From: Gluconobacter aidae
Lineage (GTDB): Bacteria; Pseudomonadota; Alphaproteobacteria; Acetobacterales; Acetobacteraceae
Length of the DNA stretch: 43,993 nucleotides
Reading direction: 5' to 3'
NCBI RefSeq assembly: GCF_009547075.1
Contig: NZ_WIPH01000021.1
Location: 1 to 43,993 of the forward strand
Shown here: positions 27,211 to 33,225 of the stretch, piece by piece
Layout: the number at the start of each line of letters is the position of its first letter
Position numbering within the stretch: position 1 is the stretch's first letter
The notes under the pieces: model-generated
What the model saw: only the letters and a program-made list of their open reading frames with translations
What the model was told of the DNA's origin: nothing
Databases searched by the model: none
Made by a program: the position numbers and the translations under genes

Positions 27211-28215
27211 TTACGCCGTAAAGGTGATGCTTCTGTTTGATATCTCAACCCGGCATCGGATCAGGCGTGCAATGGACAGGGCGAAATCTTCCGGCGCCGC
27301 CAGAGCGAAGCTGCCGGAGATCCTGCTTCCTGAAAGATGGGGATCGCGGATCATGAGTTTCAGGCGCGTATAGGGTGCAAATCGCGCAAGCGCATTCTGG
27401 AGCGTTGTGTCGTTCAGCACGAGGGTTCCCTGTCTCCACGCCGTCTGTTCGATGATGTCATCGGGGGAAAGCGGGCGGCAGGTCGCTTGCAGACTGCGGC
27501 CGGCTTGCGTGAACTCCACAGCTGTGGGGATGGTCAACTGGTGTTGGCCATCAGGGGTCTGCCAGGTGAGCGTTCCGGCATAGTGCTGAAGGCGCAGGCC
27601 CTGAGGAGAGCGTGTCAGATCGAAATCCGCTGCCGTTCCCGTAAGGCGCAGGGTGTCTGTCGAGACCGAGACGATCCCGGAATGAAGCTGGATGCCGAGC
27701 CGACCATTGACCATATCGATCCTGTCGCTGGAGGTCGCTTCCGGCAGGTAAGCGGTGGTGAGGGCATCCAGTGTAATGACGCCCTGATGCCAAGCATAAT
27801 TGCGCGGGAGTTCGTGTCCACGCTCCAGACGGACTGTTTGGTCCCGGGCCGTATCGTACAGCATCAGGCTCCCGATCGAGGCGGCGGCAAGCGGCAGAAA
27901 GCGGCGTCGCGATATGGTCGCTGTCCGGGGCGGACGGCTCGGAGTATTCCGGGCAGGGAAATGGCTCAGGGATGGAGAAGCCCGGTAATTCAGATGTCTG
28001 AAAAAGGCCTGCGCGCGGACATACGCTCCGAAATTGCGCACGTCCTGAGCAAGCCATGCCTCGAAATCCTGACGCTCTTTGCCAGTGAGGGATTGAGCAT
28101 CCTGCTGTGTGACCCAGTGTGCGGCCATTGCGTCACTGTCTTCTGATCTGTCTTCAGGCAAGAAACGATACTTTCGACTTTGGACCCTGTCGCGGGATGG
28201 GGGCGCGCTTTCCAT
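27211..28215 (-). CDS. FecR-type sigma-factor regulator (anti-sigma) with Tat motif
   Basis: A 334-residue single-span protein of the FecR family, which relays a signal from a TonB-dependent receptor to an ECF sigma factor. Residues 30-75 form the cytoplasmic FecR N-terminal domain (AAHWVTQQDA, LTGKERQDFEAWLAQD, YVRAQAFF). A twin-arginine segment SRRRFLPLAAASIG precedes the only hydrophobic span, so the Tat system may insert it. The FecR periplasmic domain and an STN-like C-terminal domain (NDTTLQNALARFAPYTRLKL, then SGSFALAAPEDFALSIARL) follow. A later start at 28128 is possible. The sigma gene that should partner it, 45 bases upstream, is broken, yet this gene shows no stop or frameshift. 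Confidence 0.85.
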   Translation of the reverse strand: MESAPPSRDRVQSRKYRFLPEDRSEDSDAMAAHWVTQQDAQSLTGKERQDFEAWLAQDVRNFGAYVRAQAFFRHLNYRASPSLSHFPARNTPSRPPRTATISRRRFLPLAAASIGSLMLYDTARDQTVRLERGHELPRNYAWHQGVITLDALTTAYLPEATSSDRIDMVNGRLGIQLHSGIVSVSTDTLRLTGTAADFDLTRSPQGLRLQHYAGTLTWQTPDGQHQLTIPTAVEFTQAGRSLQATCRPLSPDDIIEQTAWRQGTLVLNDTTLQNALARFAPYTRLKLMIRDPHLSGSRISGSFALAAPEDFALSIARLIRCRVEISNRSITFTA

Positions 28216-28776: not shown

Positions 28777-29340
28777 CTACGGGGCGGCTGACGGAGCGGG
28801 CTTCCAGAGGCGGTATCCGTTGGCGGCGAGCAGGACGAAGCCGGCATACAGCACTGCCGTCGGATAAAGGCCGCGGCTGATGAACAGGGCGACATAGGCG
28901 CTGTTCACCACGATCCACAGGACCCAGGTCTCGCGATAGCGCATGGTGTCCCACCCTTGGGCAAGGATGCTGTAGGCCGTGAGAGTGGCATCCGTGACGG
29001 GCATGGGATCGTTGGTGAAACGGGCGAGGACGAAGGCCCAGACCGCGCTTCCCGCCGCGCCGCAGAGCAGTCCGTTCAGGAGGGTCCGGCGTGTCGGGCG
29101 ACGGACGCGGATCCGGCCATCCGGTCTTTCCATTCGGTGCCAGTGCCGCCATCCGTAGACAACATACAGACAGAACGCGATCTGAAGCCCTGCATCGGCA
29201 TAGAGCCGCGCTTTGAGGAACACCCAGCAGTAAAGCCCCGCCGCCGCCAGCGAGACGGGCCAGCAGATCATGCTGCGTCGCGATGTCAGCCAGACGGCGA
29301 GTGCGCTGAGGATTGCGCCCAGAATTTCGATCAGGGACAT
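28777..29340 (-). CDS. pnuT: PnuC-family vitamin transporter, probably thiamine type (PnuT)
   Basis: A 187-residue inner-membrane protein of the PnuC family of facilitators, which import nicotinamide riboside, riboflavin or thiamine. Family features are the VSLAAAGLYCWVFLKARLYADAG block, the VVYGWRHW signature (Y-G-W-x-x-W) and the C-terminal VNSAYVALFISRGLY and ANGYRLW segments. The operon is headed by a TPP riboswitch, which points to thiamine or a precursor rather than nicotinamide riboside; such riboswitch-controlled members have been named PnuT. PnuC-type transport needs the substrate to be phosphorylated inside the cell, and the gene overlaps an upstream kinase gene by 10 bases. Confidence 0.82.
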   Translation of the reverse strand: MSLIEILGAILSALAVWLTSRRSMICWPVSLAAAGLYCWVFLKARLYADAGLQIAFCLYVVYGWRHWHRMERPDGRIRVRRPTRRTLLNGLLCGAAGSAVWAFVLARFTNDPMPVTDATLTAYSILAQGWDTMRYRETWVLWIVVNSAYVALFISRGLYPTAVLYAGFVLLAANGYRLWKPAPSAAP

Positions 29341-30485
29341 GAGGGGGCCTGAAGGGTCCGGGTCAGCCAGCGCAGGAACTGCTGCCCGGAGGGCGACGCG
29401 AACCAGTGCGCGTGGCCCAGAAGATAGTCCGTATAGGCCGCTTTCACGCCAGCCCGGTCGTGGACCAGCGTCTCGTAATAAGCGACTTCGGAGAGGGCAT
29501 ATTCGACGTGAACGAGGGGCAGGAAGAGGGGCACCAGACGGCGTTCTTCGCGGGAGAGCGCATATTGCGCCAGATAGCCCGACAGGAACGCTTCCAGCCG
29601 TTCATGAATGACGGGGCAGTCGTTCCGGGGTTCGAGCCACGCAATGGCGGTGCGTTCGATGGCGACAGCCAGATCATAGGCGGCGCAGGTCCGGTCCGAC
29701 ATGCCGAAATCGAGAATGCCACAGACCTGTGCATCGGCTCCGGTGCCGTTCCAGAACAGATTGGAGGGATGCCAGTCGCCATGGCCCCAGCGGGGCTGGA
29801 TCGTGCCGAGATGGGGTTTCAGTCTCTCATGAAACGGCAGCAGGGCGGCGGGGATATCCTCACGCCAGGGATGACGGGTCAGGGCTTCTGTCAGCCCGGC
29901 CTGTTGGGGGACCCAGCGTTCCAGCCCGCTCATCAGATCGGGGGATGTGATGACCTCGAACGTGGAGAGCAGGGGGCGTCGTGAAGGGCGGGCAGGGGCA
30001 TTGAAACTTCTGGCCGCCTCGTGAAGCCGCCCCAGATGCAGGCCGCCGGAAAAGGCGTGTTTGACGTTGTGGAACGGCTCCCAGGACTGCACGGTTTCGT
30101 ACAGGTCATGGCCGGGCATGATGGAAAAGACTTCGTATGCTGACCCATCGAGATCGAGGGCGGCCTGCCCGGTTTTCGTGCGCCATGTCTGGCCGACCGG
30201 AACGCCCTGTTCGGCCAGATGCGTGATGAAGCGGTGCTCTTCCCCAAGAGCTGCGGCATCGCGCAGGCAATGGTCATGACGTTTGACGAAAACCCGGCTC
30301 CCGTCCGCCAGCGCGACGACGCCCGTTGAGGAAAACGGTCGCCGTCCATGCCAGATGACCTGTCTGGCCGGGGCGGGGAGCGGGAAATGGGACAGGACCT
30401 CGCAGGCTTCGGCATCCGACAGCGCCGGCCAGTCCCGTTTGTTTTCGGGACCGTTGACGCCGAACTGTCCGGATGCCTCTGCCAT
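29331..30485 (-). CDS. APH-fold small-molecule kinase, candidate thiamine kinase
   Basis: A 384-residue member of the aminoglycoside phosphotransferase / choline kinase fold. It shows a nucleotide-binding N-lobe with RVFVKRHDH (likely ATP-binding Lys), the catalytic loop RWGHGDWHPSNLFW with the Brenner-type HGDxxxxN pattern, and the metal-binding GILDFGMSD. Similar proteins phosphorylate choline, homoserine, methylthioribose, antibiotics or, as ThiK in E. coli, thiamine. Its place between a TonB-dependent receptor and a PnuT-like permease behind a TPP riboswitch makes thiamine or a thiamine precursor the best guess; antibiotic resistance is unlikely. It starts 2 bases after the receptor stop and overlaps the permease gene. 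The substrate is inferred from context only. Confidence 0.78.
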   Translation of the reverse strand: MAEASGQFGVNGPENKRDWPALSDAEACEVLSHFPLPAPARQVIWHGRRPFSSTGVVALADGSRVFVKRHDHCLRDAAALGEEHRFITHLAEQGVPVGQTWRTKTGQAALDLDGSAYEVFSIMPGHDLYETVQSWEPFHNVKHAFSGGLHLGRLHEAARSFNAPARPSRRPLLSTFEVITSPDLMSGLERWVPQQAGLTEALTRHPWREDIPAALLPFHERLKPHLGTIQPRWGHGDWHPSNLFWNGTGADAQVCGILDFGMSDRTCAAYDLAVAIERTAIAWLEPRNDCPVIHERLEAFLSGYLAQYALSREERRLVPLFLPLVHVEYALSEVAYYETLVHDRAGVKAAYTDYLLGHAHWFASPSGQQFLRWLTRTLQAPSCP

Positions 30486-30487
30486 GC

Positions 30488-32971
30488 TCAGAATCCCGTG
30501 GAGGCGGTGAACAGGGCCGCGAAGCCACCACCGATATAATAGCTCGGGGCACTGCCGGCGATGGTGGTGCCATAGACGCCGGTCGTGTCCTTCGCGTTCA
30601 GGGTGGGGCTGGCCACGCCGGAAAGATAGTGCTCGTTCGTGATGTTGATGAAGTTCATCCGCAGGGTCGGCTGATGCAGATGGACGTGGTCCGAAAAGCG
30701 GTAGCCGATGGCGAGATCACCCGTCGTATGATCCGAGACGCGCTCGTCATTCATGAAGGTGGCGTACTGGTGGCCGGTGTAATGCACGGTGGCGACGCCG
30801 AAGATGTGTCCGTCATCGTAACTCAGCCCGGCCGCGGCCTGAAGGGTGGGGCTGCGGACAGCGATCTTGCCACGGGTGCGCAGAAGGTCCCCGCCGGACA
30901 TCAGATCGTTGTCGATGGTGGCGTGCAGGTATTCACCCGACACATACGGGCTGAAATGGTGCCAGGGGCGCAGGCCGATTTCCACGTCCACACCGCGTGA
31001 CGTCTGGCCACCGGCATTCATGGTCGTGCTGACGATGGAGCCGTTCTGCACGGCCTGCGTGGAGATCTGGCGGTTGGTGAAGTTGTAGTTGAACAGTGTC
31101 AGGCTGCCGATGATCCAGCGCCCCGTCCGGCGATATCCCAGCTCTTCGGAAATGGAATATTCGTTGCGGATATCCGTGGAGCCGGTTCCGTACATCTCGC
31201 CCGATGAGGGGTCATAGGTGTTGTAAAGCGCGGTCTGATCGGGTGCTCGGAAATTGGTCGTGGCATTGAAGAAAAGCTGGTTCTCGCCGTCAATCCGCCA
31301 GCGCACGCCCAGACGGGGCAGGGGCTCCATGCTGTTGGACGCGACATGATACTGCGGGCCCGGCAGGCTGTTCGTGCCATCACGGCTCATCATGACGGCT
31401 TTGAAGCCGAGGTCGATGGCCAGACGATCATGAAGCAGCGATATATGATCGCCGACGAACAGGGCATTGGTCTGGGAAATGGTATGGAAGCTGCCTCCCA
31501 GAAGCCGCTCGCCATTTGACAGGCGGATCACGTCCTTGCCGTTTTCCGCCCAGATGTCCGGTGCATATCCGTTGGTCTGGACGGCTGTGAAGGGCTGCTG
31601 CTCGTTGTCGTCGCCGTAATCGTACCAGTAACCGAGGACGAAATCGTTCCAGCCGGTCTTGTAATGCAGGGCGCTGGTAAAGCCGGAACGGTAGCTGCGC
31701 TGGGTATAATCCGCGCGGACCACACCGACGCCATCCTGCGCGCCGGGCAGGTTCAGCGTGTCGGACAGGGCCTGCGTGCCCTGATAGAGACCGGAGGTGG
31801 ACATCGTGCTTCCGCCCGGCCAGTTGCCATAGGCGAACTGGGCATAAGGCGTGACGTCCAGGGACAGGCGGTCTGTCAGCGTCAGATGAACGGGCGCCCC
31901 GCCATAAAGCGTGCGCTCTCCGTCCCGCCACAGGCGCCAGTAATTCGCGCCATTCTCGGGATTGCTGCTGTCATAGTGAGCCAGAAGATTGTTCTGGCCT
32001 CCGATGCCGTCCGATTTCCAGGAGGACATGGTGGGTTCGGGATACCAGCTTGTGATGGTCGTGTTGAAGGACCCCAGGAGACTGGCGCGGTTGCCCTGTC
32101 CCCATTCCTTGAGGAACTTGAAATCGACGTGCTGTTTCTCGTCGCGTCCGGGGCCGCGCCAGTTATCGGTTGCGCCATGGGAATAGGACACGAAGCCACG
32201 GATGCCGGTATGGGCGATGTCGCCGGTATCAAGCCGGATGAACTCGCGGTTGGTGTTGTAGGACCCATAGGACACGCTGGCATTGCCACCGGCTTTTTTG
32301 GCGGGGTCGCGGAATGTCAGGTTCATCAGGCCGCCGGCCGCGTTCAGGACCGGGCTGTCGAGGTCGGCCGATCCCTGCGCCAGGGCGATTTCCTGATAGT
32401 TCTCACTGTCCGCGAACTGGCTCGGCGTGCCGGAATAATAGGCCACGTCATTCAGCGGCATGCCTTCGAGAACATAGCCGATGGCGCTGTTATCGAGACC
32501 GCGGACGGTGATGTTCGTATTTGGGGAAAAGCCCATTGGATCGGAGGAGGCGACATTGGCGCCGGGCAGCATGGAGGCAAGCTGGAAGGCCGTCGCCATC
32601 GGGGCCTGTTTGGAAATGAAATCCTGGCTGACGGTACTGACGGATTTCACGCCGTCCTGCAGATGGATCAGTCCGCCCCCCGGCTGGTTGCCGGGAGCGC
32701 TGTCCGCAATGCGATGCACGATGATGTGCTCGGCCCTGGCGGACTTGACGGCCTGCGCCTGGGCTGTGGTCTGCTGGACCGGTGGTTTGGTCGTGGCTGG
32801 CGTATCGGCGGCCCGCGCGACCGAAAAACAGACCGTTGTGCCGATCAGGACAGGCAGAAGGCTGCGATATCGCGAACGCGAGACGGGAGGCGCAGGCGCT
32901 TCCCGCATTGTGGAGCAGTATGGTCTGACAGACGCCGGGGCCGGAATGGCCGGGTGTTGTCTGTGTGCCAT
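30488..32971 (-). CDS. TonB-dependent outer-membrane receptor under TPP riboswitch control
   Basis: An 827-residue receptor that should import thiamine or a related compound across the outer membrane with energy from TonB. An N-terminal signal sequence (hydrophobic core LLPVLIGTTVCFSVARA) is followed by a TonB-box-like EHIIVHR, a plug domain (about 90-220, with NITVRGLDNSAIGYVLEG) and a 22-strand barrel ending in an aromatic (TASTGF). There is no N-terminal STN signalling domain, so it is not a transducer for FecR. The ATG at 32971 has GAGGAG about 9 bases before it. A TPP riboswitch lies 105 bases upstream, and kinase and permease genes follow tightly. Siderophore uptake is an alternative the riboswitch makes unlikely. 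Confidence 0.87.
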   Translation of the reverse strand: MAHRQHPAIPAPASVRPYCSTMREAPAPPVSRSRYRSLLPVLIGTTVCFSVARAADTPATTKPPVQQTTAQAQAVKSARAEHIIVHRIADSAPGNQPGGGLIHLQDGVKSVSTVSQDFISKQAPMATAFQLASMLPGANVASSDPMGFSPNTNITVRGLDNSAIGYVLEGMPLNDVAYYSGTPSQFADSENYQEIALAQGSADLDSPVLNAAGGLMNLTFRDPAKKAGGNASVSYGSYNTNREFIRLDTGDIAHTGIRGFVSYSHGATDNWRGPGRDEKQHVDFKFLKEWGQGNRASLLGSFNTTITSWYPEPTMSSWKSDGIGGQNNLLAHYDSSNPENGANYWRLWRDGERTLYGGAPVHLTLTDRLSLDVTPYAQFAYGNWPGGSTMSTSGLYQGTQALSDTLNLPGAQDGVGVVRADYTQRSYRSGFTSALHYKTGWNDFVLGYWYDYGDDNEQQPFTAVQTNGYAPDIWAENGKDVIRLSNGERLLGGSFHTISQTNALFVGDHISLLHDRLAIDLGFKAVMMSRDGTNSLPGPQYHVASNSMEPLPRLGVRWRIDGENQLFFNATTNFRAPDQTALYNTYDPSSGEMYGTGSTDIRNEYSISEELGYRRTGRWIIGSLTLFNYNFTNRQISTQAVQNGSIVSTTMNAGGQTSRGVDVEIGLRPWHHFSPYVSGEYLHATIDNDLMSGGDLLRTRGKIAVRSPTLQAAAGLSYDDGHIFGVATVHYTGHQYATFMNDERVSDHTTGDLAIGYRFSDHVHLHQPTLRMNFINITNEHYLSGVASPTLNAKDTTGVYGTTIAGSAPSYYIGGGFAALFTASTGF

Positions 32972-33075
32972 GATGAGAGACTCCTCGCCTGCAAGCAATG
33001 AGATCTCAGCTCTGACAGGAAAGGTTCAAGCTGCTGGCTGCATTGTGCATGGGCATGCGTCGGGCAGACAGCGAC

Positions 33076-33188
33076 CACCATCCCTCCGCCAGTACGAACT
33101 GGATCAGGTTCAATGGGTCACTGCGCCGCATGACTTTTAAGGGTCACATCAGCAGAATCTCAGCCCCATGCCGGAGCCCCCCACGGTG
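33076..33188 (-). promoter_or_regulatory. TPP (thiamine pyrophosphate) riboswitch
   Basis: On the minus strand the aptamer landmarks occur in order: a closing stem P1 (CACCGT at 33188-33183 with ATGGTG at 33081-33076), a G-rich P2 strand, CTGAGA (33163-33158), a long P3 arm (CTGC...GCAG with internal pairing), GACCC (33119-33115), TGAACCTGATC ending at 33102, a CCAG/CTGG arm and the 3' GGCGGAGGGA. These are the universally conserved pyrimidine- and pyrophosphate-sensing segments. It precedes the TonB-dependent receptor by 105 bases. Ligand binding usually turns expression off; whether this one acts on transcription or translation is unclear, as no leader terminator with a T-run is seen. Confidence 0.93.
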
Positions 33189-33196
33189 AAACGCCA

Positions 33197-33225
33197 CAAA
33201 TCCTCTGTAGAAGATCAATTGTCAA
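33197..33225 (-). promoter_or_regulatory. candidate promoter of the thiamine operon
   Basis: A perfect TTGACA (33225-33220, minus strand) is followed after 17 bases by GATTTG (33202-33197), a poor -10. Transcription from here would begin around 33190, right at the first base of riboswitch stem P1 (33188), which supports the placement. Confidence 0.35.

Follow-up and report, generated by a model that had tools for sequence, protein, structure and literature searches.

A TPP riboswitch-preceded operon of Gluconobacter aidae predicted to import thiamine and trap it with an APH-family kinase

In the OMthi - PnuT - tnr3 operon of gut Bacteroidetes, a TPP riboswitch is combined with a TonB receptor, a PnuC-family permease and a thiamine-phosphorylating partner. 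Both transporters were reported in 91 of 114 genomes, and in a Bacteroides thetaiotaomicron without biosynthesis the loss of either the receptor or PnuT raised the thiamine requirement about 10 times; tnr3 is called a pyrophosphorylase in that paper (PMC5613172). Escherichia coli imports thiamine through the ABC system ThiBPQ; its conversion to TMP with ThiK (YcfN) and then to TPP with ThiL is drawn in PMC12632268. PMC7749635 cites Jaehme 2018, whose title names facilitated diffusion for the PnuT of Shewanella woodyi, a member of the same permease family as the one described here.

We analyzed a window of 43,993 nucleotides, positions 1 to 43,993 of a contig from Gluconobacter aidae, which carries a predicted thiamine uptake operon that is real, well conserved and of a known kind. 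As in the Bacteroidetes, it unites a TPP riboswitch, a TonB receptor, a PnuC-family permease and a predicted thiamine-phosphorylating partner. This partner is an APH-family kinase in place of tnr3, which we take to be a thiamine pyrophosphokinase, with the final step left to ThiL, and the permease gene differs in position by coming last and overlapping the kinase gene. The predicted chemistry, thiamine to TMP followed by ThiL to TPP, is shared with E. coli, whereas transport depends on ThiBPQ there and on a TonB receptor plus permease here.

We hold with good confidence that this operon serves TPP-repressed import and trapping of thiamine, through a kinase of a family distinct from both ThiK and thiamine pyrophosphokinase and common to several Pseudomonadota lineages. 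At low TPP, the aptamer would be empty and the operon made, the riboswitch presumably acting as an OFF switch, perhaps by hiding the ribosome site. Judging from families and context, scarce thiamine would then cross the outer membrane through the receptor and the inner membrane through the permease, by facilitated diffusion, to be converted to TMP by the kinase. Since TMP made in this way would trap thiamine, net uptake would be driven; thiamine entering through the PnuT of S. woodyi is reportedly trapped by phosphorylation. ThiL, encoded elsewhere, would turn TMP into TPP and thereby close the feedback loop.

The operon and its leader

The original prediction placed a TPP aptamer at 33188-33076 ahead of three tightly packed minus-strand genes. 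An Rfam scan found the same element as a strong RF00059 match on the minus strand (33064-33193; 67.3 bits against a gathering cutoff of 54.3 bits; E 3.3e-11), which was the sole Rfam match at gathering score in the window. The match spans all 105 positions of the model (1-105), and the alignment contains the CUGAGA, ACCC and GAACCUGAUCC cores along with a 26-base insert in P3. With the full-length score above gathering and the CUGAGA and GAACCUGAUC cores, the element belongs to the TPP class, and TPP binding is predicted. The gene order was also as proposed, with intact receptor, kinase and permease genes whose reading frames are all open from start to stop. The TonB-dependent receptor (30488..32971, minus strand; 827 aa) contains the Plug (PF07715) and beta-barrel (PF00593) domains and is predicted to be an outer membrane thiamine receptor. 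Its longest ORF starts at TTG 32998, but ATG 32971, 9 bases past a GAGGAG, is the likelier start. NCBIfam hemin-receptor models match this protein far under their cutoffs. The kinase gene (29331..30485, minus strand) begins 2 bases after the receptor gene, as had been stated, and the permease gene (28777..29340, minus strand) overlaps the kinase gene by 10 bases; given this spacing and overlap, a single transcript is likely. A FecR-like (DUF4880) gene lies downstream of the operon (27211-28215 of the window).

The receptor-kinase-permease order was kept in all 13 named Gluconobacter loci that we fetched for comparison. The aptamer was present in each of the 10 among them that were scanned with Rfam, and the remaining three leaders (L047, L048 and the aligned part of L049) have the same aptamer core letters. 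The sequence TTGACAAT, 5' of the aptamer, is identical in all 14 Gluconobacter leaders that were aligned. Since a consensus scan of the leader region gave no full sigma-70 match, TTGACA at 33220..33225 (minus strand) is put forward only as a possible -35 element of the operon promoter, together with a weak -10. In the leader, GAGGAG at 32981..32986 (minus strand) probably serves as the ribosome binding site for the receptor gene, and the expression platform may act on it. The predicted fold pairs four of its six bases. The GAGGAG region was paired both with and without the aptamer held, so that no switch was visible by folding, and the operon leader contained no intrinsic-terminator-like site; we infer translational control by the riboswitch. 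The hairpin over the ribosome site predicted in the window is not clearly kept in the L040, L043, L044 and L045 leaders and, with the pairing found in both folds, a hairpin that hides this site is a guess.

Identity of the kinase and the permease

The kinase (384 aa) matches APH (PF01636, E 1.3e-22) and no other Pfam family, and it has the HxDxxxxN and DxG catalytic motifs and the APH fold of APH and choline kinase-like proteins. From its family and surroundings, it is predicted to be a thiamine kinase converting thiamine to TMP. The view that it is no thiamine pyrophosphokinase stands: besides its single Pfam match, TPK_catalytic was found in none of the 41 permease-bearing genomes of the family Acetobacteraceae, and TPK_B1_binding had no match in the strain's own genome, both searches giving matches in control genomes. 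E. coli ThiK, which presumably has the same APH fold, is annotated as a thiamine kinase, and an APH-type thiamine kinase as such is therefore not new in principle. However, the window kinase family matches no ThiK model. Neither the window kinase nor four relatives matched TIGR02721 or NF007620 at E 0.01, where E. coli ThiK as a positive control scored 338 and 554 bits, and a profile comparison of the window kinase with ThiK gave a probability of 0.2%; ThiK identity was thus rejected. The closest curated models, also in fold, are those of homoserine kinase (thrB_alt, PRK05231) and SrkA/YihE. This weighs against the uptake reading, but the matches stay below cutoff (55.7 bits against 271 on NF003558), and the genomic setting of homoserine kinase and SrkA differs from that of the window kinase. 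In the portions of the literature covered, we found no paper that makes an assignment for this kinase family; an earlier prediction may exist in Jaehme 2018, Rodionov 2002 or RegPrecise.

The permease (187 aa) is a full-length PnuC-family protein, with the NMN_transporter domain (PF04973, E 3.1e-50) covering residues 2-180. Profile matches link it to the solved PnuC 4qtn (E 4.3e-18) and to E. coli PnuC (99.4%), and it is 94 to 96% identical to its counterparts in Gluconobacter potus, G. oxydans NBRC 14819 and Gluconobacter sp. P1C6_b. A tree of 85 rows, which leaves out eight near-identical Gluconobacter loci and those already represented by a longer locus, places it within a supported group of 41 permeases. 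Thirty-nine of these are kinase-linked, the two unlinked members being those of G029 and G116, and E. coli PnuC lies outside the group on a long branch. Kinase-linked permeases overall do not form one clade (five changes, shuffled mean 24), which weighs against the uptake reading; the label 'other' in this tree means that no kinase was seen, and with flanks of 1.5 kb a kinase could lie beyond. Thiamine specificity, i.e., assignment as PnuT, is predicted from context, namely the riboswitch, the kinase linkage and the separation from E. coli PnuC in the tree.

Distribution among acetic acid bacteria and in genomes without thiC and thiE

Among 299 genomes of the family, the permease was found in 41 (E 1e-10), the kinase in 43 (E 1e-20) and both in 39, a co-occurrence (Fisher p 8e-42, kinship not accounted for) whose p value overstates independence because the genomes are related. 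Permease without kinase occurred in G029 and G116, and kinase without permease in G001, G049, G080 and G128. A receptor of the same family stands beside the kinase in 36 of the 39 genomes, being in pieces at L069, L072 and L081 and shortened at L067. None was found near the kinase in G037 or G117, and the contig of G180 breaks off within the kinase gene. In G049 and G080, the kinase is clustered with an ABC ATPase, a permease, an NMT1/THI5-like binding protein and a same-family TonB receptor, in place of the PnuC-family permease (L150 5968-12021, L151 5238-11683).

Of the 39 genomes having kinase and permease, 17 have the aptamer ahead of the trio, a proportion that weighs against the uptake reading; the 22 trio genomes without it all have thiC. 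For one of them, G030, the contig begins 112 bases before a shortened receptor ORF, so the aptamer may be absent merely from the assembly. Scans with the whole of Rfam, covering 9 of these 22 loci, gave no further RNA family ahead of the trio, their one hit being a fluoride element that lies 7 kb beyond the trio in L063. Among the leaders of the 22 aptamer-less loci (e.g., L053, L054, L059, L066, L070 and L086), some have a common AT-rich ATATGAGA-like stretch, which by eye is slightly Fur-site-like. On a kinase tree of 58 rows, the aptamer label needs three changes (shuffled mean 19) and marks three groups: Gluconobacter with G218 and G250, thirteen genomes of 1.9 to 2.4 Mb, and three Sphingomonadaceae. 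This tree leaves out the split or partial kinases L069, L081, L077, L152 and L153 as well as eight near-identical Gluconobacter loci, and it labels L131 and L132 'no' although an aptamer follows the kinase; locus L158 did not enter the analysis. Three genomes of the window's genus (G054, G131 and G180; L074, L075 and L077) carry an aptamer-less trio of another branch, G054 and G131 being placed there on the kinase tree and all three on the permease tree, which suggests replacement by horizontal transfer. In G169 and G242 (L088 1960-2941, L089 5106-6087), a second TPP aptamer precedes a gene read as ThiD-like, beyond which lies another TonB receptor; the one in L088, which was checked, did not match the trio receptor profile.

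The original prediction credited the operon with a complete thiamine salvage chain. This did not hold, as the conversion of thiamine to TPP also requires ThiL, which in the strain's own genome (127 contigs) is encoded on another contig than the operon (303.8 bits), so that the chain of the operon is incomplete by itself. One further TPP aptamer, also on another contig, precedes a gene run with ThiC and ThiE, whose other genes look like thiO, thiG, thiF-like and thiD. With this run, ThiL and the uptake operon all present, the strain probably both makes and imports thiamine. For G. oxydans 621H, a table in PMC5756330 gives one TPP riboswitch, located before the phosphomethylpyrimidine synthase gene and with signs of early termination. 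As this is the only TPP riboswitch that the table gives, 621H seems to be without the operon aptamer and perhaps without the operon.

Genomes without thiC and thiE offered a natural test of the prediction. ThiL scored over cutoff in all 41 permease genomes, ThiC was present in 33 (in two pieces in G211) and absent from 8, and ThiE gave a match in 36, over the curated cutoff in 19. Six of the thiC-less genomes (G032, G070, G136, G243, G273 and G296) are also without thiE, five having no match at all and G032 only a 19.7-bit fragment. Every one of the six carries the kinase and permease behind a TPP aptamer. Because ThiL needs TMP and both ThiE and TPK are absent from these genomes, the trio kinase is the only candidate TMP source found in them, in searches that covered ThiE and TPK. 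The trio could thus account for TPP synthesis from imported thiamine in acetic acid bacteria that have neither thiC nor thiE. The two other thiC-less genomes, G029 and G116, have thiE and lack the kinase, a contrast of 6/6 with 0/2 (Fisher p 0.036, kinship disregarded). Two points weigh against the uptake reading here: the six genomes represent three genera, with four of them in one, and in G136 the receptor, alone of the trio, reads as pieces.

In G029 and G116, a TPP aptamer stands before a same-family receptor (888 and 883 bits) followed by TenA-family genes (L092 2066-6090, L094 1605-4857), two in tandem in G029; the starts of these TenA-family proteins resemble signal peptides, so they may be periplasmic thiaminases II. 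G029 also has two tandem divergent PnuC-family genes, without the kinase, right after a TPP aptamer (65.5 bits; L079 6607-7901). Receptor and kinase are in pieces in G126 and G286, both of which have thiC and thiE. The fragmented genes of G136, G126 and G286 (loci L072 8782-11131, L069 and L081) reflect either decay or sequencing error. In G211, thiC and thiE lie in pieces behind a TPP aptamer (G211:C1:288139-290540) and the riboswitch-controlled trio is open; biosynthesis is apparently being lost there.

These genomes also bear on an unlikely alternative, in which thiamine is imported as proposed and the kinase either makes TPP directly, as an APH-fold pyrophosphokinase, or acts on a different alcohol related to thiamine, such as HMP or hydroxyethylthiazole. 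The absence of TPK_catalytic from the 41 genomes would fit such an enzyme, as would the NMT1/THI5-like (PF09084) system that the kinase adjoins in G049 and G080, a family that includes pyrimidine-precursor binding proteins. However, ThiL is kept throughout, even in the six thiE-less genomes, where the ThiE and TPK searches gave no other source of TMP, and HMP or thiazole would be useless in those six since ThiE is absent. Moreover, APH kinases transfer one phosphate.

Related cassettes in other lineages and their annotation

The original prediction described the operon as a distinct version of the pathway in acetic acid bacteria. A class-wide search with the kinase profile had looked like such a restriction, its hits at E 1e-40 being 2 of 385, both in the own family, but plasmid records and a phylum-wide permease search turned up relatives elsewhere. 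Novosphingobium resinovorum, N. humi and Sphingomonas parapaucimobilis share the same riboswitch-receptor-kinase-permease order, and kinase and permease also occur in Burkholderia and Acinetobacter. The kinase was present in 36 plasmid records (Acinetobacter 25, Novosphingobium 5, Burkholderia 4, Sphingomonas 1 and Rhizobium 1), 8 of which were examined in detail. N. capsulatum has the three genes without the aptamer, which weighs against the uptake reading. The aptamer is likewise absent from two Burkholderia plasmids with permease and kinase and from two Acinetobacter plasmids with the order kinase-receptor-permease. In two further genomes of the phylum (G510 and G387), the order is kinase, aptamer, permease; the kinase lies upstream of the aptamer and thus is not under its control, which again weighs against the uptake reading. 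So does the lack of any match between the own-family receptor profile and the TonB receptors that accompany the kinase in G467, G546, G355 and A. schindleri; Pfam domains are present in those of G546, G467 and A. schindleri. From these profile misses, the kinase-permease pair seems to have been combined with different receptors. At L137 (6913-10917, G591), where no kinase was matched, a minus-strand TPP aptamer precedes a long minus-strand ORF and a PnuC-family gene lies beyond on the plus strand.

Taken across lineages, the window kinase probably represents a third family of thiamine kinases, distinct by sequence model from ThiK and thiamine pyrophosphokinase. It would occur in three classes of Pseudomonadota, on Acinetobacter plasmids as well. 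Its partner would be a PnuT, replaced in two genomes by an NMT1/THI5-like ABC system; uptake and trapping would thus move together in a single cassette, which has a TPP riboswitch in three lineages.

The trio might instead handle another compound, such as nicotinamide riboside or an iron-linked ligand, with the riboswitch recruited in some lineages only. The 22 of 39 trios without an aptamer would suit this reading, as would the weak hemin-receptor matches and the public annotation of the permease as a nicotinamide riboside transporter and of the Acinetobacter receptor as a siderophore receptor. Yet we judge it very unlikely, because three separate groups of the kinase tree have the aptamer ahead of the trio, as do all six genomes devoid of thiC and thiE. 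Furthermore, two Bacteroidota PnuC proteins fall outside the window's permease group, as does E. coli PnuC, and the AAA_28 gene beside the two Bacteroidota genes, which we presume to be of NadR type, is absent from the window operon. The best sequence match of the kinase among solved structures (an amicoumacin kinase, E 5.9e-7) might suggest a detoxifying or drug-phosphorylating enzyme that lies in the operon by chance. This is improbable in the extreme, given that kinase and permease occur together in 39 of 299 genomes, that their genes overlap by 10 bases and that the neighbors of the kinase are retained in the own family and in Sphingomonadaceae.

The thiamine import and trapping reading predicts a substrate for an unassigned 'phosphotransferase' found beside the 'nicotinamide riboside transporter PnuC'. 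In the annotated plasmid records that we examined, the permease is named a nicotinamide riboside transporter and the Acinetobacter receptor a siderophore receptor; if the prediction holds in the plasmid-bearing lineages too, both labels would be wrong. The Acinetobacter plasmids of L142 and L146, typed as mobilizable, carry the kinase, the TonB receptor so annotated and the PnuC-family permease as one unit.
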